A stretch of DNA of 64,000 nucleotides, from the NCBI RefSeq assembly GCF_022758295.1, contig NZ_JALDWJ010000002.1:1-64000 (forward strand). The letters are read 5' to 3'. The translations under genes were made by a program, and so were the position numbers. The notes under the pieces are model-generated. The model did not search any database. It was not told the DNA's origin and worked only from the letters and a program-made list of their open reading frames with translations. Source of the stretch: Lysobacter sp. CFH 32150 (lineage in GTDB: Bacteria; Pseudomonadota; Gammaproteobacteria; Xanthomonadales; Xanthomonadaceae). Each line of letters starts with the position of its first letter. The first letter of the stretch is position 1. Shown here piece by piece: positions 30,979-42,482 of this stretch.

Positions 30979-32661
30979 ATGAGTTTCGAACGTCCTTGGC
31001 TGTCCAGCTATCCGTCCGACGTTCCCGAACAGATCGACATCGATGCATTCCCGTCGATCGTCGCGGTGTTGCAGAACGCGATCGACAAATTCCGCGATCG
31101 TCCGGCTTACGCCAACCTTGGCAAGGTGCTGACTTATGGCGACATCGACCGGCTCAGCCAACAATTCGCGGCCTACCTGCTCGGCGAGTTGAAGCTGAAG
31201 AAAGGCGATCGCGTCGCGATCATGCTGCCGAACTGCCTGCAGTATCCGATCGCGATCTTCGGCATCCTGCGCGCCGGGCTGACGGTGGTGAACGTCAATC
31301 CGATGTATACACCACGCGAGCTGAAGCACCAGTTGGTCGACTCGGGCGCCAGCGCGATCCTGGTGCTCGACAATTTCGGCCAGACCGTCCAGGAAGTCGT
31401 CGCGGACTCGCCGGTGCAACAGGTGATCACCACTGGCCTGGGCGACATGCTGGGCTTCCCCAAGGGCGCGATCGTCAACTTCATGCTCAAGCACGTGAAG
31501 AAGATGGTGCCCGATTACGACATTCCCGGTGCCATTCGCTTCAAGGACACCCTCACCCTCGGCCAGATGCGGGCGCTGCCCGAAGTCGCGATCGCTCCCG
31601 ACGACATCGCGTTCCTGCAATACACCGGCGGCACCACCGGCGTGGCCAAGGGGGCGATGCTCACGCACCGCAACCTCGTCACCAACATGCTGCAGGCCTC
31701 GGCTTGGATCGCCGGCAGCATGAAACCCGGTGAGGAACTCATCGTTACTGCATTGCCGCTGTACCACATCTTCGCGTTGACCGCGAACAGCCTGGTCTTC
31801 ATGAACCTCGGCGCGCTGAACTACCTGATCACCAATCCGCGCGACATGGCCGGATTCGTCAAGGAGCTGTCGAAGATTCCGTTCACGGCCATTACCGGCG
31901 TCAATACGTTGTTCAACGGCCTGCTCAACACGCCTGGTTTCGACAAGGTCGACTTCTCGCACCTGCGCTTGACGCTGGGCGGCGGCATGGCGGTGCAACG
32001 CGCAGTGGCGGAACGCTGGAAGCAAGTCACCGGTTGCCCGCTCATCGAGGCTTACGGCCTGACCGAAACCTCACCCGCTGCGTGCATCAACCCATGGAAC
32101 CTGAAGGACTACAACGGCTCAATCGGCTTGCCGATCCCATCGACGGATGCCTGCGTCAAGGACGAGGATGGCAACATGCTGCCGGTCGGCGAAGTCGGTG
32201 AACTGTGCATCAAGGGCCCACAGGTGATGAAGGGCTACTGGCAGCGCCCGGCGGAAACCGCCAAACAGATCGACGCCGATGGGTGGTTGCACACCGGCGA
32301 CATGGCGCGGATGGACGAGAAGGGATTCTTCTACATCGTCGACCGCAAGAAGGACATGATCCTGGTGTCCGGTTTCAACGTGTACCCGAACGAGATCGAG
32401 GACGTGGTTGCGATGATGCCAGGCGTGCTTGAAGTCGCCGCGGTGGGCGTACCGGACGAGAAGTCGGGCGAAGCGATCAAGGTGGTGATCGTGAAGAAGG
32501 ATCCGACTTTGACCGCCGAGCAGGTCAAGGAACACGCTCGCCAGAACATGACTGGCTACAAGCAGCCCAAGTACGTCGAGTTCCGCACCGAACTGCCCAA
32601 GACCAACGTCGGCAAGATCCTGCGCCGCGAGTTGCGCGACTCAGCTGCCAAGGCGTCCTGA
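30979..32661 (+). CDS. rpfB: Long-chain fatty acid--CoA ligase RpfB/FadD
   Basis: A 560-residue ATP-dependent acyl-CoA ligase. The AMP-binding motifs are intact: YTGGTTGVAKGAMLTH (near residue 213), EAYGLTETSPAA and HTGDMARMDEKGFFYIVDRK, then VSGFNVYPNEIED. In Xanthomonas RpfB activates fatty acids, including DSF signals, and so turns signals over. GGGGGAG lies 6 nt before the ATG at 30979; the longer frame from 30904 is unsupported. It is separated here from rpfF by a second signalling module, whereas in Xanthomonas the two are adjacent. Confidence 0.93.
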   Translation: MSFERPWLSSYPSDVPEQIDIDAFPSIVAVLQNAIDKFRDRPAYANLGKVLTYGDIDRLSQQFAAYLLGELKLKKGDRVAIMLPNCLQYPIAIFGILRAGLTVVNVNPMYTPRELKHQLVDSGASAILVLDNFGQTVQEVVADSPVQQVITTGLGDMLGFPKGAIVNFMLKHVKKMVPDYDIPGAIRFKDTLTLGQMRALPEVAIAPDDIAFLQYTGGTTGVAKGAMLTHRNLVTNMLQASAWIAGSMKPGEELIVTALPLYHIFALTANSLVFMNLGALNYLITNPRDMAGFVKELSKIPFTAITGVNTLFNGLLNTPGFDKVDFSHLRLTLGGGMAVQRAVAERWKQVTGCPLIEAYGLTETSPAACINPWNLKDYNGSIGLPIPSTDACVKDEDGNMLPVGEVGELCIKGPQVMKGYWQRPAETAKQIDADGWLHTGDMARMDEKGFFYIVDRKKDMILVSGFNVYPNEIEDVVAMMPGVLEVAAVGVPDEKSGEAIKVVIVKKDPTLTAEQVKEHARQNMTGYKQPKYVEFRTELPKTNVGKILRRELRDSAAKAS

Positions 32662-32732: not shown

Positions 32733-32984
32733 TCAGGTCGCCGACTTGTTCAAGTTCCTGAGGATCAGCTCGCTGACTTCGTCCAAGGATGGATTCGACG
32801 GCATGTCCATCATGTCAAAAGTGAAGTCCAGTTCGGTTTCGATGTCGAGCATCAGGTCGACCATCAGGATGGAGTCGATTCCGATATCCGCCCGCCGCGT
32901 ATCACCGCGCAGCTGGCTCATATCGATTGAAAAGCGCTCATGAAGCATCTCTTTCAGCTTCGCCAAAACCTGCTCTTTGTCCAT
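32733..32984 (-). CDS. Stand-alone acyl carrier protein (second DSF-like module)
   Basis: An acidic 83-residue ACP. The phosphopantetheine site is Ser38 in DIGIDSILMVDLMLDIETEL, with the normal helix II around it. It differs clearly from housekeeping AcpP, which has DLGADSLDTVE, and resembles ACPs of specialised pathways. The ATG at 32984 has GGGAG 7 nt upstream; an upstream in-phase extension to 33053 is not credible. The gene lies just beyond rpfB and is divergent from the second rpfC-like kinase. I infer it carries the acyl chain on which the neighbouring ketosynthase and crotonase act. Confidence 0.88.
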   Translation of the reverse strand: MDKEQVLAKLKEMLHERFSIDMSQLRGDTRRADIGIDSILMVDLMLDIETELDFTFDMMDMPSNPSLDEVSELILRNLNKSAT

Positions 32985-33184
32985 AGACCGTCTCCCTGGA
33001 AATCGATTCCTGCACGGATATGCAGCATACGTAATTCTGCCCGCCCCGATCACGGCGCCAATCCTGGTAGCTGGCGTAAGTAGCGGTTTGGCTGCGGTCG
33101 GACTACGATGCTCCGCAGGAAGCGATCCCGGCTGGCGTAAGGGGGCTGCCGGTCACACGAAAATGCGGTGGGGCGCTGATCAAG

Positions 33185-35296
33185 ATGAAAACAGCAAGCC
33201 ACTTAGCATCTGACCACGACATCGAATTCAGTGTGAAGGCCCAGGCCCTGCTTCGACTGAAGCTGGGTTTTCCGATCCTGGCGCTGATGGTGCTTGCGAT
33301 CTGGTTCTGGGGGCCGTCGTCGCCCGCGATCGGCTGGACGCAGATCGGTGCCTGGCTCGCGATCCATGCCGCCTACAATTTCGTGGCGCTGCACTTTGCC
33401 ACCCGCCTGCGGCCGTTCTCGGCCTGGGAGGTCGTGGTCGTTACGGCGATCCTCGACCCCATCATGCTGTCGGGCTGGCTGGCGCTGATGGGCCCGCCAG
33501 CCCTTGTCTTCGTGGGCTTCTACCTGTTCACGATACTCGGCCACGGTTTCCGTGTCGGTGTCGTGCCGATGCGGATCTGCCAGTGCGTGACGCTGGCCGG
33601 ATTCTTGATCGTGGTCTGGGTTTCGCCGGTATGGCGGGGACAGCCGTTGATCTCGCTATCCCACATCGTGCTACTGATCGTGGTCCCGTTGTATGCCTCG
33701 ATGCTGCTCCGAAAATTGCATGCCGCTCGCGAACATGCCGAACGTGAGAGCCAGGCCAAGTCCCAGCTGCTGGCGAACGTCAGTCATGAGTTGCGCACAC
33801 CGCTGACCGGCATAGTCTCTTCAGCGCAACTGATCGAAGCCGAAACGCGCGATCCGCTCATCTCCGAGCGTGCCGCCGCTATTCTGAAGCTGTCATCGGC
33901 ACTGAATACGGAAATCAATCAACTGCTGGACTTGGCCAAGCATCAAGCCAAGCAGATCAGGCCGGAATCGGCCGCGTTCGATCTGGCGAGCGTATTGCAG
34001 CACCTGCAGCTCACGCTGAGGCCGATCGCTGCCGTCCGAAACATCGAGTTCGCGGTCCAGGTGGACGAGCGGGTGCAACAAGCCGTGATAGGCAACGCGC
34101 ATGAACTGAGCAGTGTGCTGATGAACCTGGCCGGTAATGCCATCAAGTTCACCGAAAAGGGACGGGCGGACGTTTCTGTGGAGGTGATCGAAGACCTGGC
34201 CGATGAGTATTTGCTGCGATTCAGTGTGCAGGACACCGGCATCGGCATACCGCCGGAACTCCAGGAAAAGATCTTCGAGCCGTTCTATCAAGTATCCACC
34301 GGCGCCGCCCGACGATATGGAGGAACCGGGCTGGGCACCACCATTGCGAAGGAGCTTGTCACCCTGATGGGAGGCACGTTACACGTGAAGAGCGTGCCGC
34401 ACCGAGGCAGCCTGTTCTGGTTCGAGTTGCGCATGGTCAAGGCCACCTCAGTGTCCGCTGAGGTCCCCGAGGAAGCGCCGGCCCATGCCGTCGACGCCAA
34501 GCACATCCTGGTCGCCGACGACCATGCAACGAACCTGATGCTGGTGAAGGAAATGCTCAAGAAGGACCGGCACATTGTCGCGACCGCCCAATCCGGTGCG
34601 GAGGCACTTGAATGCCTCAATACGATGTCGTTCGACGCGGTCTTTCTCGATTTCCATATGGCGGACATGGATGGCGCCGAAGTATTCGAGTTGTATCGCT
34701 TCGGGAAGGTGCACACGGCACCCACTTTCTTCATCACCGCCGATACCACTGCGGCCACCACGCGACGGCTGCTCGATCTGGGTGCGGCAGGACTCTTGCA
34801 CAAGCCGATCACGTTCGAAAAACTGCGCGCGGCCTTGGCCGGCCAGTTCCAGAACGAACCAGGTCCCGATTCGCAGTTGCAGGTGTCCCAGCACCCATCG
34901 GCGCTGTTGAAGGCCGTGCCGGTCGCGTATATCGATTTGCAGGTACTCGATGTCCTGCGCGAAGTCAGCGAAGCACCAGAGTTCCTGACCAAGATGCTCT
35001 CGGCTGGCATCGCGGACATGGAGCGGCTGAGCGCAGAACTGATGCCCTCGCTGGAAAACGTCGACATCGAGGCGGTGCGCTTTCACGCCCACGCCCTGAA
35101 GGGGGTCAGCCTCAATCTGGGAGCGGTACGCCTCGCCACGCTCGCCAATCGGCTGATGACGGTTTCTGCAGGAGAGCTACGGCACACCAAGCAACAGTGG
35201 CGGGCGGATATCGAAGAGGCGATCAGGTGCAGCATCGCCGGCCTGCGCGATGTCCTGACGCCACGACGGCCTGATCGCCGCAGCCGATCCACGTGA
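33185..35296 (+). CDS. RpfC-type hybrid sensor kinase, second copy
   Basis: A 703-residue hybrid kinase with RpfC architecture. Five or so membrane helices lie at about residues 23-175. The HisKA phosphoacceptor is His201 in NVSHELRTP. The HATPase has NLAGNAIKFTE, DTGIGIP and GGTGLGTT. The receiver has Asp489 in FLDFHMADMDG, and the C-terminal HPt has His636 in HALKG. All phosphotransfer residues are present. Its membrane region differs from the other RpfC copy (39277-41406), so it may sense a different fatty acid. It is convergent with the second rpfF gene and divergent from the ACP gene. The intended response regulator partner is unclear because the adjacent rpfG copy is broken. Confidence 0.88.
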   Translation: MKTASHLASDHDIEFSVKAQALLRLKLGFPILALMVLAIWFWGPSSPAIGWTQIGAWLAIHAAYNFVALHFATRLRPFSAWEVVVVTAILDPIMLSGWLALMGPPALVFVGFYLFTILGHGFRVGVVPMRICQCVTLAGFLIVVWVSPVWRGQPLISLSHIVLLIVVPLYASMLLRKLHAAREHAERESQAKSQLLANVSHELRTPLTGIVSSAQLIEAETRDPLISERAAAILKLSSALNTEINQLLDLAKHQAKQIRPESAAFDLASVLQHLQLTLRPIAAVRNIEFAVQVDERVQQAVIGNAHELSSVLMNLAGNAIKFTEKGRADVSVEVIEDLADEYLLRFSVQDTGIGIPPELQEKIFEPFYQVSTGAARRYGGTGLGTTIAKELVTLMGGTLHVKSVPHRGSLFWFELRMVKATSVSAEVPEEAPAHAVDAKHILVADDHATNLMLVKEMLKKDRHIVATAQSGAEALECLNTMSFDAVFLDFHMADMDGAEVFELYRFGKVHTAPTFFITADTTAATTRRLLDLGAAGLLHKPITFEKLRAALAGQFQNEPGPDSQLQVSQHPSALLKAVPVAYIDLQVLDVLREVSEAPEFLTKMLSAGIADMERLSAELMPSLENVDIEAVRFHAHALKGVSLNLGAVRLATLANRLMTVSAGELRHTKQQWRADIEEAIRCSIAGLRDVLTPRRPDRRSRST

Positions 35297-35356
35297 TGGG
35301 GAGCAGCCCTCGGCCACCCCCGACCCACTCGTGAATTTTCGAACCGTGCCCGCCGT

Positions 35357-36259
35357 TCACGCCGCCAAACGTCGAGGTTCCGCCTGTTGTCCCTGCTGCA
35401 ACATGATCAGCATATCCAGCGCGCGCAGTTCTTCAGCGCTCAGCTGCAAGGCCGTCTCGACCCATTCGTCTACTACCTGGGCGCATTCCTGGTAGTCGAG
35501 CGGTGCGAGACGGTGCCGGCTACGCTGTAGCATCATGCGGGCCTTCCGGCGGGAGGCATGCGTCGCGATGAACTGTTCTACGGCCTGCTGGCCACGGCCG
35601 GTCGGGCAGATTTCGTCGATCACGCCCATCTCGAGCAGTTCCGGTGCCGAATAGATTCGCTTGTTGGTCATCATGCGCTCGGCTTGATGGACGCCCACGC
35701 GTCGGGCCAGCAAACCCATACCACCCGTGCATGGAAACAGCCCGAACATGATTTCGGGGAACCCGAAGGTGCTTTGTTCCTCGGCGATCAGGAAATCGGT
35801 ACTCAACGCGATTTCAAAACCTCCGCCCAGCGCCCGGCCTTGCACCAGGGTGATCGACGTCACCGTGTCCTTGAGCAAGGTCGACCAGTCATGTAGTAGC
35901 TCCAGGCAGCGCCTCGAATACCCGTACAGCGCCGCCTTGTTTCGCTCGTTGATGCAAGTGCGGAAGTGGCTCAGGTCACCGCCCAGGCTGAAGTATTCGG
36001 GATGATTGGATTGCATGACGGCGTAATGGAAGGGCAGCTGCTGCCCGTCGTGCGACCAGTGACCGCCACTCGCCTTCAAGGTCTGCATCATGGCGTGAAA
36101 TTCAGCCAGCAACGCCGGTGTGAAATTCTGGGGGCCTCCGTTAGGGTCCTGGTTCAGTGTTATCCACAAGGTATTCACCTTGGATCGCGTCATGTCTGTG
36201 GAAATGCGACTCGCCGATAGGGATTCCGTTATCGATGTAGAAAGTTCGACCGCGTTCAT
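35357..36259 (-). CDS. RpfF-type DSF synthase homolog, second copy
   Basis: A 300-residue crotonase-fold protein. RpfF in Xanthomonas removes water from 3-hydroxyacyl-ACP and hydrolyses the thioester to release cis-2-unsaturated DSF acids. Both catalytic glutamates are present and 20 residues apart: Glu149 in ALGGGFEIAL and Glu169 in GFPEIMFGLFP, the spacing of the known pair. The oxyanion-hole motif is YFSLGGDLSHF. The N-terminus (residues 1-30) is unlike the other RpfF copy. AGGAGA precedes the ATG. It follows the ketosynthase gene by 42 bp and is probably co-transcribed with it. Confidence 0.86.
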   Translation of the reverse strand: MNAVELSTSITESLSASRISTDMTRSKVNTLWITLNQDPNGGPQNFTPALLAEFHAMMQTLKASGGHWSHDGQQLPFHYAVMQSNHPEYFSLGGDLSHFRTCINERNKAALYGYSRRCLELLHDWSTLLKDTVTSITLVQGRALGGGFEIALSTDFLIAEEQSTFGFPEIMFGLFPCTGGMGLLARRVGVHQAERMMTNKRIYSAPELLEMGVIDEICPTGRGQQAVEQFIATHASRRKARMMLQRSRHRLAPLDYQECAQVVDEWVETALQLSAEELRALDMLIMLQQGQQAEPRRLAA

Positions 36260-36301
36260 TGCTTTGCTCTCCTGCTGTGGGGCACCTCTGAAAAATCGCC
36301 G

Positions 36302-37546
36302 CTACGATGGCGCCTTCGGTTCACACGCAACGACTAATGCCACGTTGGTGCCACCGAAGCCGCAAGAAAATGACAGCGCTCGCTTAATGGGCCGGTTTGC
36401 AATGGACTGGCAAGCCACGTGATTCAATCCGCAGCGTGGGTCGATCTCTTCGAGGTGGGCCGTCGCTGGGAGCAACGATTCGTTCATGGCGATCACCGTG
36501 ATCAGTAACTCGAGCGCGCTGGTTGCGCCGAGCAGATGTCCATGCACAGACTTCGTGGAACTCACCGGCACCGATTCGGCGGAGTCGCCGAATACGGAGC
36601 GGATGGCGTTCGCCTCGATGACATCGCCGCCATGGGTGGCTGTGGCGTGCGCGTTCAGATAATCGAGTTCGCCAGGTTCAATGCCTGCATCCGCCAGCGC
36701 AGCACGCAACGCTGCCGCCTGCCCCGTCGCCTCCGGCATGCCGATGTGGTGAGCATCACTCGATATGCCGTAGCCCGTCACGTACCCATAGCACCGAGCG
36801 TTGCGCGCTCTGGCGTGCGATTCCGATTCAAGCACGAGGAAAGCAGAGCCTTCGCCAAGCACCAGCCCGGCGCGGTCAGTCGCAAACGGCTTACAGCTGC
36901 GTGCAACATCGGACGGGTCGGGAGGCGCAAGTGCGCGGGTGCCATCGAAAACGCTGAAGGGAATGGCCATCAAGGGCGCTTCCGCACCGCCGGCGATCGC
37001 AACGTCCAAGTAGCCGTCGGCGATCGCGCGGGCTGCTTCGCCGATGGCGACCCCCGACGATCCGCACGCGCTGGCGTGGGTGACGACGGGGCCCCGAATC
37101 TGGTGCCGGATCGCGATCTGCGCCCCGCCGCCGTTGCCCATGATCGCCATCGCCGTAAACGGCCGCGCGGCTTGCTTCCCCTCGACGAGCAATTGCTGAT
37201 ACCAAGCTTGCGCGGTAGCACCGCCACCGTTGACATTGCCGTAATAGAGCCCGGCGCGCATTCCATAGTCGGAAAAATCGTTGAAGCCGGCATCCAGGAT
37301 GGCCTGACGGGCCGCCAGAATCGCCAAGTGCTGGCAACGGTCAAGGAACGGCTGTTCCAGTTTCGCAAACTCATCTTCGAAGGAGCGTCTGATGACTCCT
37401 GCGGGAAAAGCTTTCTTCAAGGGCGCCGCTTCGATCAGGGAGATACCGGAGCGGGTGCTGGAAAGCGAGGCCGTGACCTGGGTCACATCCAGCCCGATGG
37501 GTGACAACACCCCCAATCCGGTAATGGCTACTGCCCTTCTGCTCAT
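36302..37546 (-). CDS. FabF-like beta-ketoacyl-ACP synthase linked to the second rpfF
   Basis: A 414-residue KAS II-like condensing enzyme. The catalytic set is complete: Cys161 in HASACGSSGVAIGEA, His300 in NAHATATHGGD, Lys332 in SSTKSVHG and His337 in GHLLGA. An active Cys means it can elongate, unlike the decarboxylating Ser-type KS of beta-branching cassettes. The start ATG at 37546 follows a run of six G; an upstream TTG at 37564 is less likely. The C-terminal FSCGFGGTNVALVV is typical. Such a gene is not part of the known Xanthomonas rpf cluster. With the downstream rpfF-like gene it probably makes a variant acyl signal. Confidence 0.88.
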   Translation of the reverse strand: MSRRAVAITGLGVLSPIGLDVTQVTASLSSTRSGISLIEAAPLKKAFPAGVIRRSFEDEFAKLEQPFLDRCQHLAILAARQAILDAGFNDFSDYGMRAGLYYGNVNGGGATAQAWYQQLLVEGKQAARPFTAMAIMGNGGGAQIAIRHQIRGPVVTHASACGSSGVAIGEAARAIADGYLDVAIAGGAEAPLMAIPFSVFDGTRALAPPDPSDVARSCKPFATDRAGLVLGEGSAFLVLESESHARARNARCYGYVTGYGISSDAHHIGMPEATGQAAALRAALADAGIEPGELDYLNAHATATHGGDVIEANAIRSVFGDSAESVPVSSTKSVHGHLLGATSALELLITVIAMNESLLPATAHLEEIDPRCGLNHVACQSIANRPIKRALSFSCGFGGTNVALVVACEPKAPS

Positions 37547-38342
37547 ATGCCCCCCTATCTCCAAAGGAGAGTGTATGCCGCCTTCCCCGAACGATACGCC
37601 GCGACGCCGGGCAGCTGAACGGGGCCAGCCATCGGCTCGGATAATCGTGCCGAGTCGTGAGCCCGCGCACGCTTGCCTTTCAATTTCAAACGCTCGTTCG
37701 TTTGCAAAAGGCTCTATGCGCTGCCACAGCTCATGGCTGATCTGCGACGGATGATCGCCGTCTCTTCTTCTGTCAGCGGCGCGGGCTTCAGCAACGGCAC
37801 GGTGTCGGATCGCAATCTGCCGATGTCATGCAACAGCGCGGCCAATTCGATCAACCAAACCCCGTCTTCGAATATGCCTGATGTTCCGCGATCAGCCCGG
37901 TGACGTGTGACATGCGCTCATGGTAGGCAGCACTGATACCGGCCGCGTGTGCCAGACGTGTCAGGGTTTCACGCTCGCGTTCCTCGCCTCGTTCATGGCA
38001 GGTTGCGGAGTGCGTGTAGTTCGCGCGGCCGTACCGGTTTGACCGGAAAGTCGATAACGCCAGCGTCTCCGGCTGCCCAAGTTCTTCGAATTCCGCACCG
38101 AGCAGCCCAAAGGGCAACGTCGGCAAGACTCTGCGCAAGAACCTACCCGACTCGCCCCCCGCCCCTGAGCCATTCCGGGCGGACCGCCCAGTCAATCCGC
38201 CTATCCGGCCGCCCTGACAATTCACTTGCGGTTTACCCTTGGAGGGTGCATAGAGGTCGGCAATCGGGCGTGCTGTGCCTTCCAAATGGCCGCCATCCTC
38301 CGAGCCCGATCGTTGGCGGCCCCAATTCAGGGGAAAACTCCC
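37547..38342. other. Intergenic region between the ketosynthase and rpfF
   Basis: About 800 bp without an intact gene. Most of it is taken up by a decayed minus-strand rpfG copy (about 37714-38170). The 38171-38342 part must hold the promoter of rpfF (+) but no clear -35/-10 pair is visible. Confidence 0.6.
37714..38170 (-). pseudogene. Decayed rpfG copy (REC tail and HD-GYP start)
   Basis: Fragments of RpfG are readable in order on the minus strand but in different frames. First is [20 protein letters not shown] followed by LRNLP, matching [20 protein letters not shown] in intact RpfG. After a deletion of the linker helix comes ERERETLTRLAHAAG, then HERMSHVTGLIAE. A last frame gives WLIELAALLHDIGRLRSDTV and KPAPLTEEETAII, matching [16 protein letters not shown] and [13 protein letters not shown]. 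At least three frame changes and a deletion of roughly 75 bp separate the pieces. The gene cannot make a working phosphodiesterase. It marks a former second rpfG beside the second rpfC/rpfF pair. Confidence 0.85.
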
Positions 38343-39254
38343 ATGCGCAACGTCGAGCCACTACATCGCGATACCACTTTATCCACCATCCGCATCCAGC
38401 ACGATCCCAACAACGATTCGCACTGGTGCTTCATGCACGCGCAGCAGGCATTCGCCGACCCGGCGTATCGAGCCTGCTTCTCGCCGAAGTTGTTGCGTGA
38501 GTTGCGGCTGTTCGCGCAACAGACCATCGATTCGATCGCGCAACAATCCACCCTCTCGGAAACGCACTTGGCACACATCGTGCTTGCATCCGACACGCAC
38601 GTCTTCAACCTGGGTGGCGACCTCGATCTGTTCGCGCAGCTGATCCGCACGCGTGACCGCGGGGGCCTGCTGCGTTATGCACGTGAATGTGTCGATAGCG
38701 TGCATTTGCTGCACAGCCGGCTGCATCCCAACGCCCACACGATCGGCCTGATCGAAGGCGACGCGCTCGGCGGCGGCCTTGAACTCGCCCTTGCCTGCCA
38801 GACCGTCGTTGCCGAAAGCGGCGTGCAGATGGGTTTCCCGGAGGTACTGTTTGGCCTGTTCCCGGGCATGGGTGCCTATTCGCTGCTGTCGCGCCGGGTC
38901 AGCCCGAAGCTAGCCGAAGAGATGATGCTCAACGGCGTGATGTATAGCAGCGACGAGCTGCATCGCATGGGCATCGTTGATGTTCTGGTGCCCAAGGGCG
39001 AAGGCGTGCGCGCAGTACATGAGCTGATCCGACAGAACCGCCGCATCGCCGCCGCGCGCTTGGCCTTGCATCGTGTTCGCGACCATGTGCATCCGCTCAG
39101 CCTGGACGAACTGACCCGCATCACCGAAATCTGGGTGGACACCGCGCTGCAACTCGGGGACAAGCAGCTGCGGATGATGGAACGGCTGGTGCGCGCACAG
39201 TTGCGGCGTCCGGAAACGACGACAGAGGAAGCCAGCATCAACGTAGCGAGCTGA
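38343..39254 (+). CDS. rpfF: DSF synthase RpfF (canonical position)
   Basis: A 303-residue crotonase that makes DSF-type cis-2-unsaturated fatty acids from 3-hydroxyacyl-ACP. Catalytic Glu147 lies in ALGGGLELAL and Glu167 in GFPEVLFGLFPGMGAYSLLS; the oxyanion motif is FNLGGDLDLF. AGGGGA precedes the ATG at 38343, and the longer frame from 38226 adds residues without homology. It is convergent with rpfC (22-bp gap), exactly as in Xanthomonas, which marks this copy as the ancestral one. RpfC is known to bind and restrain RpfF at low cell density. Confidence 0.92.
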   Translation: MRNVEPLHRDTTLSTIRIQHDPNNDSHWCFMHAQQAFADPAYRACFSPKLLRELRLFAQQTIDSIAQQSTLSETHLAHIVLASDTHVFNLGGDLDLFAQLIRTRDRGGLLRYARECVDSVHLLHSRLHPNAHTIGLIEGDALGGGLELALACQTVVAESGVQMGFPEVLFGLFPGMGAYSLLSRRVSPKLAEEMMLNGVMYSSDELHRMGIVDVLVPKGEGVRAVHELIRQNRRIAAARLALHRVRDHVHPLSLDELTRITEIWVDTALQLGDKQLRMMERLVRAQLRRPETTTEEASINVAS

Positions 39255-39276: not shown

Positions 39277-41406
39277 TTAGCCGCGATCGCCGTCGGCTTC
39301 GGCGCGCGGCAGGTCGCCGCGCTGGCGCAGTGTAGTCAGCGCTTGTTCCAGCTGTAGCCGCAGTCGCGCCAATATCGCGCGCCAGTCGCCCTGCAGCTGG
39401 ATATTGCCCATCCGCATGGCGGCCGACGCATTTTCGGCCAGCACTACTGCACCCATGTTCCCGGCCGCGCCCTTGAGCGCATGGCAGGCATCCCGGTAGG
39501 CGTCCCAGCGCGCCGCTGTACCAGTCGTCTCCAATTCGTCGATGGCCTTGCGCGCATCGCGTGCGCATTCGATCAGGAAACGCTGTACGAAGGCTTCGCC
39601 CAGATCCATCTGCCGCAGCTCGTCCAGTATCTGCCGCGAGATCGCGCCATCGCTGACAACCACGGGTCGCGGTGCAGCCTGCTCGTCCGACCTGGCGACG
39701 ATGCCGTCGCCGATCTCGGCGAGCTTGTCGAGCAGCTTTTCGACAACGATCGGCTTGGACAGGAATGCGTAAGCGCCGGCGCGCTCACATTCCATTTGTG
39801 CTTCCGGCGTGGCATCGGCGGTGAGCACGATGAACGGCGTCCGTTTGTGTCCGGCCTGCATGAAGCGGGCTTGTTTGATCGTTTCCAAGCCGCTGAGGCC
39901 GGGCATGTGCAGGTCGGTGATCACCACATCGAACTGCTGCGCCTCAAGTGCGTTCAGCACCGCTTCGCCGTCTTCGACCAGTTGCAGGCGATGTCCGGCG
40001 CGCTCCAGCAGGCGTTGCATCACCATCACATTCGCGGGTTGATCGTCGGCGACCAGCACACGTAGCGGCCGGACCCGCGCGCGATGGCGCACGAACGGAT
40101 CGCTGAAAGCGATGACGTTGCTGGTGGCAGTCGCGGCCGGCTTCGCGGCTTGCAGCCGGAACGGCACGTCGATCCAGAAATGCGAGCCGACGCCCTCCTC
40201 GCTTTCGACACTGAGGTGACCGCCGAGGATCTCGGTCAGGGCCAGCGCGATGGTAGTGCCGAGGCCGGTACCGCCATAGCGGCGGTCGCGTCCGCTGTCC
40301 GCCTGTTCGAAGGCGTGGAAGATGCGCTTCAGCGCCTCCGGCGTGATGCCGATGCCGGTATCGCGCACCGAGAAGCAGAACTGCCCCGCTTCCGAGCTGC
40401 GCTCGAGCACCGACACCTCGAGTTCGACCTTGCCGGTCTCGGTGAATTTGATCGCGTTCGTCAACAGATTGACCAGGATCTGCTGCAGATGACCGCTATC
40501 GCCATTCAGTGCATCAGGCACGTCAGGTGGCAGCAGGATGTCGAACGCCAGACCCTTCGCGTGCGCGCTCGGTTGCAGCATCATCTTGATGTTGTCGATC
40601 AGCGCACGCAGGCTGAAATCGGTGTCGTTGCGCTTGAGCTTGCCGGCTTCGATCGCGGAGATGTCGAGCACATCCTCGACCAGGGCTTGCAGCGAGCGTG
40701 CCGAGGCGCGAATGACTTCGGCGCTATCGCGCTGGTCCGGCGTCAGCGACGAGGTGGCCAGCAGTTCCGCCATGCCAACGATGCCGTTAAGCGGGGTGCG
40801 GAATTCGTGGCTCATGTTGGCCACGAAGCGGCTCTTGGCCGCGCTCGCCGCCTTGGCCATTTCGGTCGCCCGCACCAGCGCCTTCAGCAACGAACTCAAG
40901 TACAAAGGCACGGCGATCAATCCGACCAGCAAGCCCCAACCTATCCAGGGATTGGCCTGCCAGTACGGCGTGGTCAGGATCACCGTGAGGAAGGTGGTGC
41001 AGGCGAAACCGATCGCCAGATACAGATAACGCGGCCCGTAGCGTAGGCCGTTGCCGATCGTGACCCAGAGGATGATGACGTACATCGGCGCCAGCAACTG
41101 CCCCAGCAGGTACATGCCGACGCCCATCAGGCTGTAATCGACGCACATCCCTAGGAGACGACGCGGGTGCGAGGCCGCCGGCCGCGCCGTGATCCAGCCG
41201 ATGATGATCAAGCTGACCGCGAACGCCAACCCCAGGAAACGCAGCGACAGCTGTGAAGCTTCCGCCACTTCCGGACGCAGGTTGGCCACCAGCAACACAT
41301 AGATCAACACGACCACCAGCATGACCAGGCGAACCAGCGCCTGCTGATGCTCGCTGTCCGGTCGGCCAGCAAACTGGCGCTTTACCCTGGACAGCAGCGC
41401 CGACAT
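39277..41406 (-). CDS. rpfC: DSF sensor hybrid kinase RpfC (canonical position)
   Basis: A 709-residue membrane-bound hybrid kinase that detects DSF and signals to RpfG. It has five hydrophobic helices at about residues 24-175. The phosphoacceptor is His200 in [12 protein letters not shown]. HATPase motifs are [17 protein letters not shown] and GGTGLGTT; the receiver has Asp498 in [12 protein letters not shown], and the HPt has His642 in CHALKG. The ATG at 41406 overlaps the rpfG stop (TGATG), so the two are translationally coupled. A longer frame from 41562 runs inside rpfG and is not the start. rpfH, which some xanthomonads have between rpfC and rpfG, is absent. Confidence 0.94.
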
Positions 41407-42482
41407 CAGCGCTCCGACCACGGCCGCGGGTTGACCGCGGAGTAGCGCTGGCAGATGTCCTCCAGCCGGGCACGGTTGCGTATGAGTACATCGGCGCAGC
41501 GTGGATCGAACAGGCGTCCGCGCTGGGCGTAGATATAAGCCAGTGCGGAATCGACACTCCACGGCTGCTTGTACGGGCGTGGCGAGATCAGTGCGTCGAA
41601 CACGTCCGCGACCGCCACGATGCGCGCTTCCAGTGGAATGGCGTCGCCGGCCAGGCCGTCTGGATAGCCACTGCCGTCGTAGCGCTCGTGATGGCGCAGC
41701 GCGATCATGGCGCCGGTCTGGATGAACCGGTTCTGGCTGCCACTGAGCAGTTCGTGCCCCAGCTGCGGATGCTTGCGCATCACTATGATCTCGCTCTCGG
41801 TGAGCGGACCCGGCTTCATCAGGATCGCATCCGGGATCGCGATCTTGCCCATGTCGTGCAGCGGTGCGGCCATCTCGATGACACGCGCTTCATCCTCGGA
41901 CATGCCAAGGCCTTCGGCGATCAACCCCGCCACATGGGACATGCGCTCCAGGTAGGCGCTGGTGCCGGCATCGCGATATTCGATCGCGCGTGCGAGCCGC
42001 GACAGGGTCTCGCGCTCGCGCTCCTCGACCTCGTTCATGCTCGACAGCAGTCGTTGCTCCAACGACAACGCCCGTTGCTTCACGTTCTCCGATTGCTGGC
42101 GCAGCTGCAGCAGGTTGCGGCAACGTGCACGCAATTCGCGTGGCCGGACCGGTTTGACCAGGAAGTCGATGACGCCGGCGTCCAGCGCAGCCTGACGTAT
42201 CGGCTCGTCGCCGACCACGGTGACCAGCACGATCGGCACATCGCGGTGCACTGGCGGCCGGCGGAAGCGCCGCGCGAACTCAAGGCCGTCCATTCCCGGC
42301 ATGCGGTAATCGAGCAGGAGCAGGTCGGGACGGTTCTGTTCGCACCAGCCGAGCGCGACGGTCGGGTCGCCGAAATCGTGCACGGCTAACTCGGGACCGA
42401 TGTCCTCGAGGATGTGGCGCAACATGCTGCGCGCCGAAGTTTGATCGTCGACGATGACGACATTCACATCATTAACCCGCAT
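41406..42482 (-). CDS. rpfG: Cyclic di-GMP phosphodiesterase response regulator RpfG
   Basis: A 358-residue two-domain regulator. The REC domain has Asp58 in [12 protein letters not shown] and Lys110 in LVKPVRP. A helical linker (residues 125-160) leads to the HD-GYP domain with His209-Asp210 in LHDMGKI, HH in [14 protein letters not shown] (GYP at 272-274) and [15 protein letters not shown]. Phosphorylation by RpfC activates degradation of cyclic di-GMP and so controls virulence factors and biofilm in Xanthomonas. It precedes rpfC with a 1-nt overlap. A degraded second copy lies at 37714-38170. Confidence 0.95.

Follow-up and report, generated by a model that had tools for sequence, protein, structure and literature searches.

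Introduction

Synthesis of the diffusible signal factor (DSF) by the canonical rpfB-rpfF-rpfC-rpfG locus of Xanthomonas and Lysobacter draws on the general elongation cycle (PMC4542539, PMC5941067). The rpf-1 and rpf-2 forms of this locus in Stenotrophomonas maltophilia are distinguished mainly by the N-terminal parts of RpfF and RpfC, and no 3-ketoacyl-ACP synthase (KS) or acyl carrier protein (ACP) has been reported in them (PMC4517397). Lysobacter capsici 55 was reported without canonical rpfC and rpfF (PMC4657364). In L. capsici AZ78, which activates a DSF reporter of Xanthomonas campestris pv. campestris (Xcc), rpfF and rpfC (AZ78_3297/3298) are adjacent, 35% and 29–31% identical to those of Xcc, and located about 3.1 Mb from rpfG/rpfB (PMC8416617). 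The authors of that work call the genes simply rpfF and rpfC, the terms ketoacyl, oxoacyl and acyl carrier are absent from the text, and no mutant is described (PMC8416617). Here we describe a four-gene module from Lysobacter sp. CFH 32150, located within the first 64,000 nucleotides of contig NZ_JALDWJ010000002.1 (this whole stretch being referred to as the window). The module comprises an ACP, a KS, an RpfF-type crotonase (RpfF2) and an RpfC-type hybrid kinase (HK2), and probably constitutes an alternative form of DSF quorum sensing. No description of it was found in the open-access literature, subscription papers being outside the search, and the rpfF literature on Thiomonas, Noviherbaspirillum, Dokdonella and Luteimonas held nothing relevant.

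Results

Conservation of the module

Of 297 Lysobacteraceae genomes searched with the crotonase, 15 besides that of the window matched at 52–60% identity (E <1e-92), separated by a clean gap from the remainder at about 35–42%. The reverse search with the KS recovered the same 16 genomes, that of the window included. The KS adjoins the crotonase in all 15 loci of the relatives (KS identity 59–69%), the kinase gene is convergent to the crotonase gene in 14 of them, and the ACP was present in the same 14 when the loci were extended; in the fifteenth the contig ends there. Scanning named genomes with the crotonase alone yielded 65 loci from gamma- and betaproteobacteria, distributed over Luteimonas, Lysobacter, Pseudoxanthomonas, Dokdonella, Rudaea, Herbaspirillum, Noviherbaspirillum, Herminiimonas, Thiomonas, Sulfuritalea and unnamed metagenome-assembled genomes (MAGs). 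Where at least 4.5 kb was available on both sides of the crotonase (45 of the 65, hereafter well-flanked loci), the KS was found in 45/45, the ACP in 44/45, the kinase in 44/45 and all three in 43/45. Since these loci were picked by the crotonase alone, the neighbouring KS, ACP and kinase genes represent independent evidence. An RpfG-like HD-GYP regulator lies within about 6.5 kb in 33 of the 65 loci. Neither a KS nor an ACP was found in 10 canonical loci, all of the order rpfB-rpfF-rpfC-rpfG. Moreover, the distances of the four module proteins are correlated with each other (Mantel r 0.83–0.91, p 0.001), as expected for co-inherited partners. The four genes make up a genuine signalling module that is conserved, co-inherited and equipped with an ACP and a KS of its own. 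Surveys at phylum and order level with alignment at E<=1e-60 also picked up canonical RpfF and served for context only.

Some of the loci show arrangements of their own. In Lysobacter sp. Root690 (L064:11380-13738), a phage-type integrase and a dihydrouridine synthase (Dus) gene adjoin the ACP side of the module; dus genes are known integration sites, and this copy may have arrived on an integrative element. A plasmid-borne module was rejected, as no plasmid record among the best matches carried an RpfF-like protein of more than 37% identity. A proteobacterial MAG (L094:553-8789) carries two tandem KS-RpfF2 pairs of different sub-branches on either side of one HK2, a second instance of doubled DSF-type modules. 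In a Herbaspirillum MAG (L051:12232-14412), a response regulator with GGDEF and EAL domains adjoins the ACP and replaces the HD-GYP RpfG; the output may still be cyclic di-GMP (c-di-GMP). In L101 and L113, KS-RpfF2-ACP stands near glutamate synthase genes without an adjoining HK2, the sensor being possibly elsewhere or lost.

Relationships of the module proteins

RpfF2 is, judging by sequence and modelled fold, a member of the DSF synthase family. Its best relative in the PDB is Xcc RpfF (151 bits), with DspI and ordinary hydratases at 63 bits or less. A tree of 108 rows places all 73 RpfF2 sequences in one clade (Shimodaira-Hasegawa-like approximate likelihood ratio test, SH-aLRT, 95) beside canonical RpfF, that of Burkholderia included, and a branch with support of 99 separates ordinary enoyl-CoA hydratases from both. 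RpfF2 is 35–42% identical to canonical RpfF, its sister clade. An AlphaFold model of RpfF2 (mean pLDDT 77) had DSF synthases (RpfF, DfsA, RpF-1) as PDB fold matches 1 to 12. An identity as ordinary enoyl-CoA hydratase was rejected on tree, profile and fold. The catalytic Glu149 and Glu169 (Glu141 and Glu161 of Xcc RpfF) are invariant in all 73 members, whereas the pocket motif FPGMGAY of canonical RpfF reads FPCTG[AG]M in nearly all of them. In the alignment with Xcc RpfF, Gly169 is replaced by Cys (71/73), Met170 by Thr or Ser (71/73) and Tyr173 by Met (72/73). Docking work reports Gly169 of Xcc RpfF as a residue of the pocket (PMC9864630).

HK2 forms a clade separate from RpfC (support 100 and 99). 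Its input domain of about five transmembrane (TM) segments is homologous to the RpfC input (hhalign probability 99.4, E 4.9e-21), and His201 and Asp489 are invariant in 61/61 sequences, His636 in 59/59 where aligned. This input, together with the domain architecture, marks HK2 as a predicted RpfC-type sensor kinase. The module KS likewise falls into a single clade (support 100), apart from FabF and NodE, with Cys161, His300, His337 and Lys332 invariant (64/64), and Ser38 of the ACP is invariant in 56/56. The genome of the window (3.5 Mb, 17 contigs) holds three further KS genes, of which the nearest, a FabF, is 36% identical to the module KS, and a separate AcpP gene adjoins the housekeeping FabF. 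The KS/ACP pair of the module is therefore additional, and a duplication of housekeeping fabF/acpP was rejected on the same grounds.

The original prediction, made from the sequence of the window, had taken the four genes for a set with an RpfF-type crotonase and an RpfC-type kinase, distinguished by its ACP and KS from the canonical cluster. Co-occurrence, the trees and the 10 canonical loci agree with it: KS and crotonase are not scattered among relatives, since they occur in an identical 16 of the 297 genomes, and the crotonase groups with RpfF rather than with enoyl-CoA hydratases.

Allelic exchange at the rpf locus

Eight of the 15 relatives have the module inside the rpf locus. In those whose contig spans both borders, it is found between rpfB and rpfG, in the position that rpfF-rpfC occupy in canonical genomes. 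A search with canonical RpfF found none in 13 of the 16 module genomes, both types occurring only in the window's genome, G159 and G173. With RpfF2 as the only RpfF type in those 13 genomes and with the position of rpfF-rpfC so often taken, the module is not just a second system but an alternative DSF allele that has a KS-ACP of its own. Its initial description as a second, inserted module thus holds for the window genome, whereas most relatives have it as their only RpfF-type system, often in replacement of rpfF-rpfC. Among five genomes checked in which the module lies elsewhere, the rpf locus is reduced to rpfB-rpfG in three and has kept rpfC but not rpfF in two. One rpfG is kept in all 16 module genomes. 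This retention of rpfG where rpfF (and, in three of the five, rpfC) was lost suggests that HK2 works through RpfG. In the window, rpfG is the only ortholog of the genome and is thus probably common to both sensors.

In L177 and L178, where the module lies elsewhere, an orphan canonical rpfC stands at the rpf locus with no canonical rpfF. The rpf locus L070:6428-12494, with rpfA-rpfB upstream, carries HK2 followed by a canonical RpfC-like gene that reaches the contig end, and is possibly another fused locus. In the genus of L. capsici AZ78, G137 and G089 are the only 2 of 20 genomes with RpfF2; the module of G137 lies 3.25 Mb from rpfG. From the identities and gene layout that they share with AZ78, this strain is very probably a carrier of the module.

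Organization of the window

The features of the region are listed in Table 1. The four module open reading frames (ORFs) are uninterrupted, and all Pfam assignments of their products (PP-binding; HisKA, HATPase_c, Response_reg and Hpt; ECH_1; both ketoacyl-synthase domains) exceed the curated cut-offs. KS and rpfF2 are the sole co-directional pair of the module, 42 bp apart with the KS upstream, and the ACP and kinase genes are transcribed divergently; thus the module is not one operon.

Table 1. Features of the rpf region in the window
Feature	Coordinates	Strand	Basis and remarks
rpfB (fatty acyl-CoA ligase), bordering the module on the left	30979..32661	+	ORF, gene order
ACP, dedicated, 83 aa, phosphopantetheine Ser38	32733..32984	-	Pfam PP-binding; distinct from housekeeping AcpP; in 44/45 well-flanked module loci
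HK2, RpfC-type hybrid kinase, 703 aa, ~5-TM input + HisKA + HATPase_c + REC + Hpt	33185..35296	+	Pfam, tree, hhalign
RpfF2, RpfF-type DSF synthase (predicted), 300 aa, Glu149/Glu169, motif FPCTG, not FPGMG	35357..36259	-	ECH_1, tree, fold
Module KS, FabF-like 3-ketoacyl-ACP synthase (predicted), 414 aa, Cys161/His300/His337	36302..37546	-	Pfam, tree, residues
rpfG pseudogene, covering parts of RpfG residues 98-279 and interrupted by stops and frameshifts	37624..38076	-	tblastn, blastn
rpfB 3'-end remnant, just upstream of canonical rpfF	38072..38136	+	83% identity over 65 nt
Canonical rpfF (RpfF1), intact	38340..39254	+	Profile, canonical-RpfF search, tree
Canonical rpfC, intact	39277..41400	-	Pfam, tree
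rpfG, REC + HD-GYP	41406..42482	-	Pfam; sole rpfG ortholog of the genome

The four genes had been correctly placed from the outset, and ORFs, Pfam and alignment bear out their intact key residues; what had been overlooked is that the gap between KS and canonical rpfF (37.6–38.14 kb) holds an rpfG pseudogene and an rpfB remnant, which abut. The pseudogene matches the intact rpfG (tblastn E 4e-16; blastn E 4e-19 and 3e-15). The remnant matches the end of the window's own rpfB (E 1.7e-12), being equally close to several loci. In the module-type loci L037 and L043, rpfG adjoins the KS, and in canonical loci rpfB adjoins rpfF; the window can thus be read as two alleles joined end to end. By gene order and homology, the pseudogene is a relic of the rpfG that adjoins the KS in module-type loci and the remnant is a junction scar. 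On the same basis, both rpf alleles are fused in the window, a rare arrangement in which the redundant ends are decaying and both synthase-sensor sets were retained. For canonical rpfF, the longest ORF reading extends upstream to a TTG at 38226, and the ATG at 38340 is the likelier start.

Discussion

We consider, with a probability of about 0.8, that the module is an alternative form of DSF quorum sensing that combines synthase and sensor with an elongation unit of its own and that usually replaces canonical rpfF-rpfC. The module KS would elongate an acyl chain on the module ACP by condensation with malonyl units, and the general FabG would reduce the resulting 3-ketoacyl-ACP, as the module has no ketoreductase. 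RpfF2, on account of its family, Glu pair and fold, would then dehydrate 3-hydroxyacyl-ACP to the cis-2-enoyl form and hydrolyse it to a free DSF-family acid. Its domains and neighbourhood suggest that HK2 may sense this acid through the RpfC-type membrane domain and relay phosphate via REC and Hpt to RpfG, by which c-di-GMP would be lowered. In the window genome, recombination would have joined two rpf alleles in tandem, both being kept with one RpfG in common.

Several points weigh against this reading. Known chemistry does not explain why the module should need its own KS and ACP, given that canonical RpfF works without them. The KS is not nearby in 3 of the 65 loci, mostly on short contigs, and HK2 is not nearby in 2 (L101, L113). 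The NCBIfam RpfF model (NF053515) has a cut-off of 550 bits; RpfF2 scores 174, and the canonical RpfF of the window, at 346, also falls below it. The membership of AZ78 was deduced from identity values and gene layout, and its reporter test was performed without a mutant.

As to the signal itself, the chance is close to even that RpfF2 makes an ordinary acid resembling DSF or the Burkholderia diffusible signal factor (BDSF), KS and ACP serving to secure precursors or to insulate them from general fatty acid synthesis, with no second chemical language involved. Canonical RpfF is usually missing from module genomes, as for a functional substitute, the catalytic residues of RpfF2 match those of RpfF, and AZ78, probably of module type, activates the Xcc reporter (PMC8416617). 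Nonetheless, the pocket-motif changes are fixed in RpfF2, a separate sensor clade nearly always accompanies it, and the two systems retained in the window genome, G159 and G173 would be redundant. The pocket changes, the KS clade, the dedicated ACP, the co-evolving sensor and the retention of both systems in the same genome would rather fit a chemically different signal, as originally predicted, with a distinct chain supplied by KS/ACP, released by RpfF2 only and sensed by HK2 only, giving two insulated channels in the window genome. NodE/NodF, a dedicated KS and ACP pair by which the acyl chain of a signal molecule is determined, provide a precedent. This proposal is plausible, if short of even odds: the reporter activity of AZ78 speaks against a very different molecule, and the KS, FabF-like and with its triad intact, gives no sign of unusual substrates. 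Perhaps, and we say so tentatively, two insulated fatty acid channels converge on one RpfG here, most relatives having swapped languages at the same locus.

A role of KS, ACP and crotonase in making some structural or secondary-metabolite lipid, with the kinase as a neighbouring regulator, is improbable. Pairs of KS and ACP are common in lipid and aryl-polyene clusters, and a related pair is found in another context in Caballeronia; yet no further biosynthetic gene was seen conserved with the module, the homology of the kinase to RpfC extends to its input domain, and it is rpfF-rpfC that the module replaces between rpfB and rpfG. The pseudogene scars adjoining the module could recall decaying acquired DNA or an accident of one genome, which is hardly credible: the module is conserved over many genera with invariant catalytic residues, and only the redundant rpfG and rpfB pieces have decayed. 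Accidental neighbourhood is refuted by the counts in well-flanked loci and the identical 16-genome sets.

The preferred reading, an alternative DSF system with its own elongation unit, would have several consequences. General fatty acid synthesis is regarded as the source of DSF signals, and the module would represent a dedicated biosynthetic route. Dozens of other bacteria share this set of four genes, which usually stands in for the standard DSF genes and represents a widespread sister branch of RpfF almost always accompanied by its own KS, ACP and sensor. If this is true, it would account for bacteria reported without rpfF/rpfC, such as L. capsici 55; signal-language switching by allele replacement would become testable at one conserved locus, and the strain of the window would be a natural two-channel strain with one common c-di-GMP output.

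Comparison with known systems

RpfF2 shares the DSF-synthase fold (5fus, 6dgn, 5wyb) with the RpfF-RpfR (BDSF) system of Burkholderia and Cronobacter and with DspI of Pseudomonas aeruginosa, but falls outside that branch; to our knowledge, those systems use another receptor type and have no KS or ACP. The rhizobial Nod factor proteins NodE/NodF are alike in being a FabF-like KS and an ACP dedicated to one signal molecule, whereas the module KS forms its own clade at 38% identity and the module ACP shares 24%; membership was rejected, as NodE lies outside the module KS clade, and we know of no crotonase or RpfC partner of NodEF. The rpf-1 and rpf-2 forms of S. maltophilia are likewise two allelic rpf forms with paired RpfF and RpfC variants; identity with rpf-2 was rejected because the divergence of the module spans the whole protein and KS/ACP are present. 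The module resembles the canonical rpfB-rpfF-rpfC-rpfG cluster of Xanthomonas and Lysobacter, with which it shares both catalytic Glu residues, a homologous kinase input, the same locus in those 8 relatives and the rpfG partner, and from which it differs in that RpfF2 and HK2 stand in their own clades and a KS and an ACP belong to the module itself.

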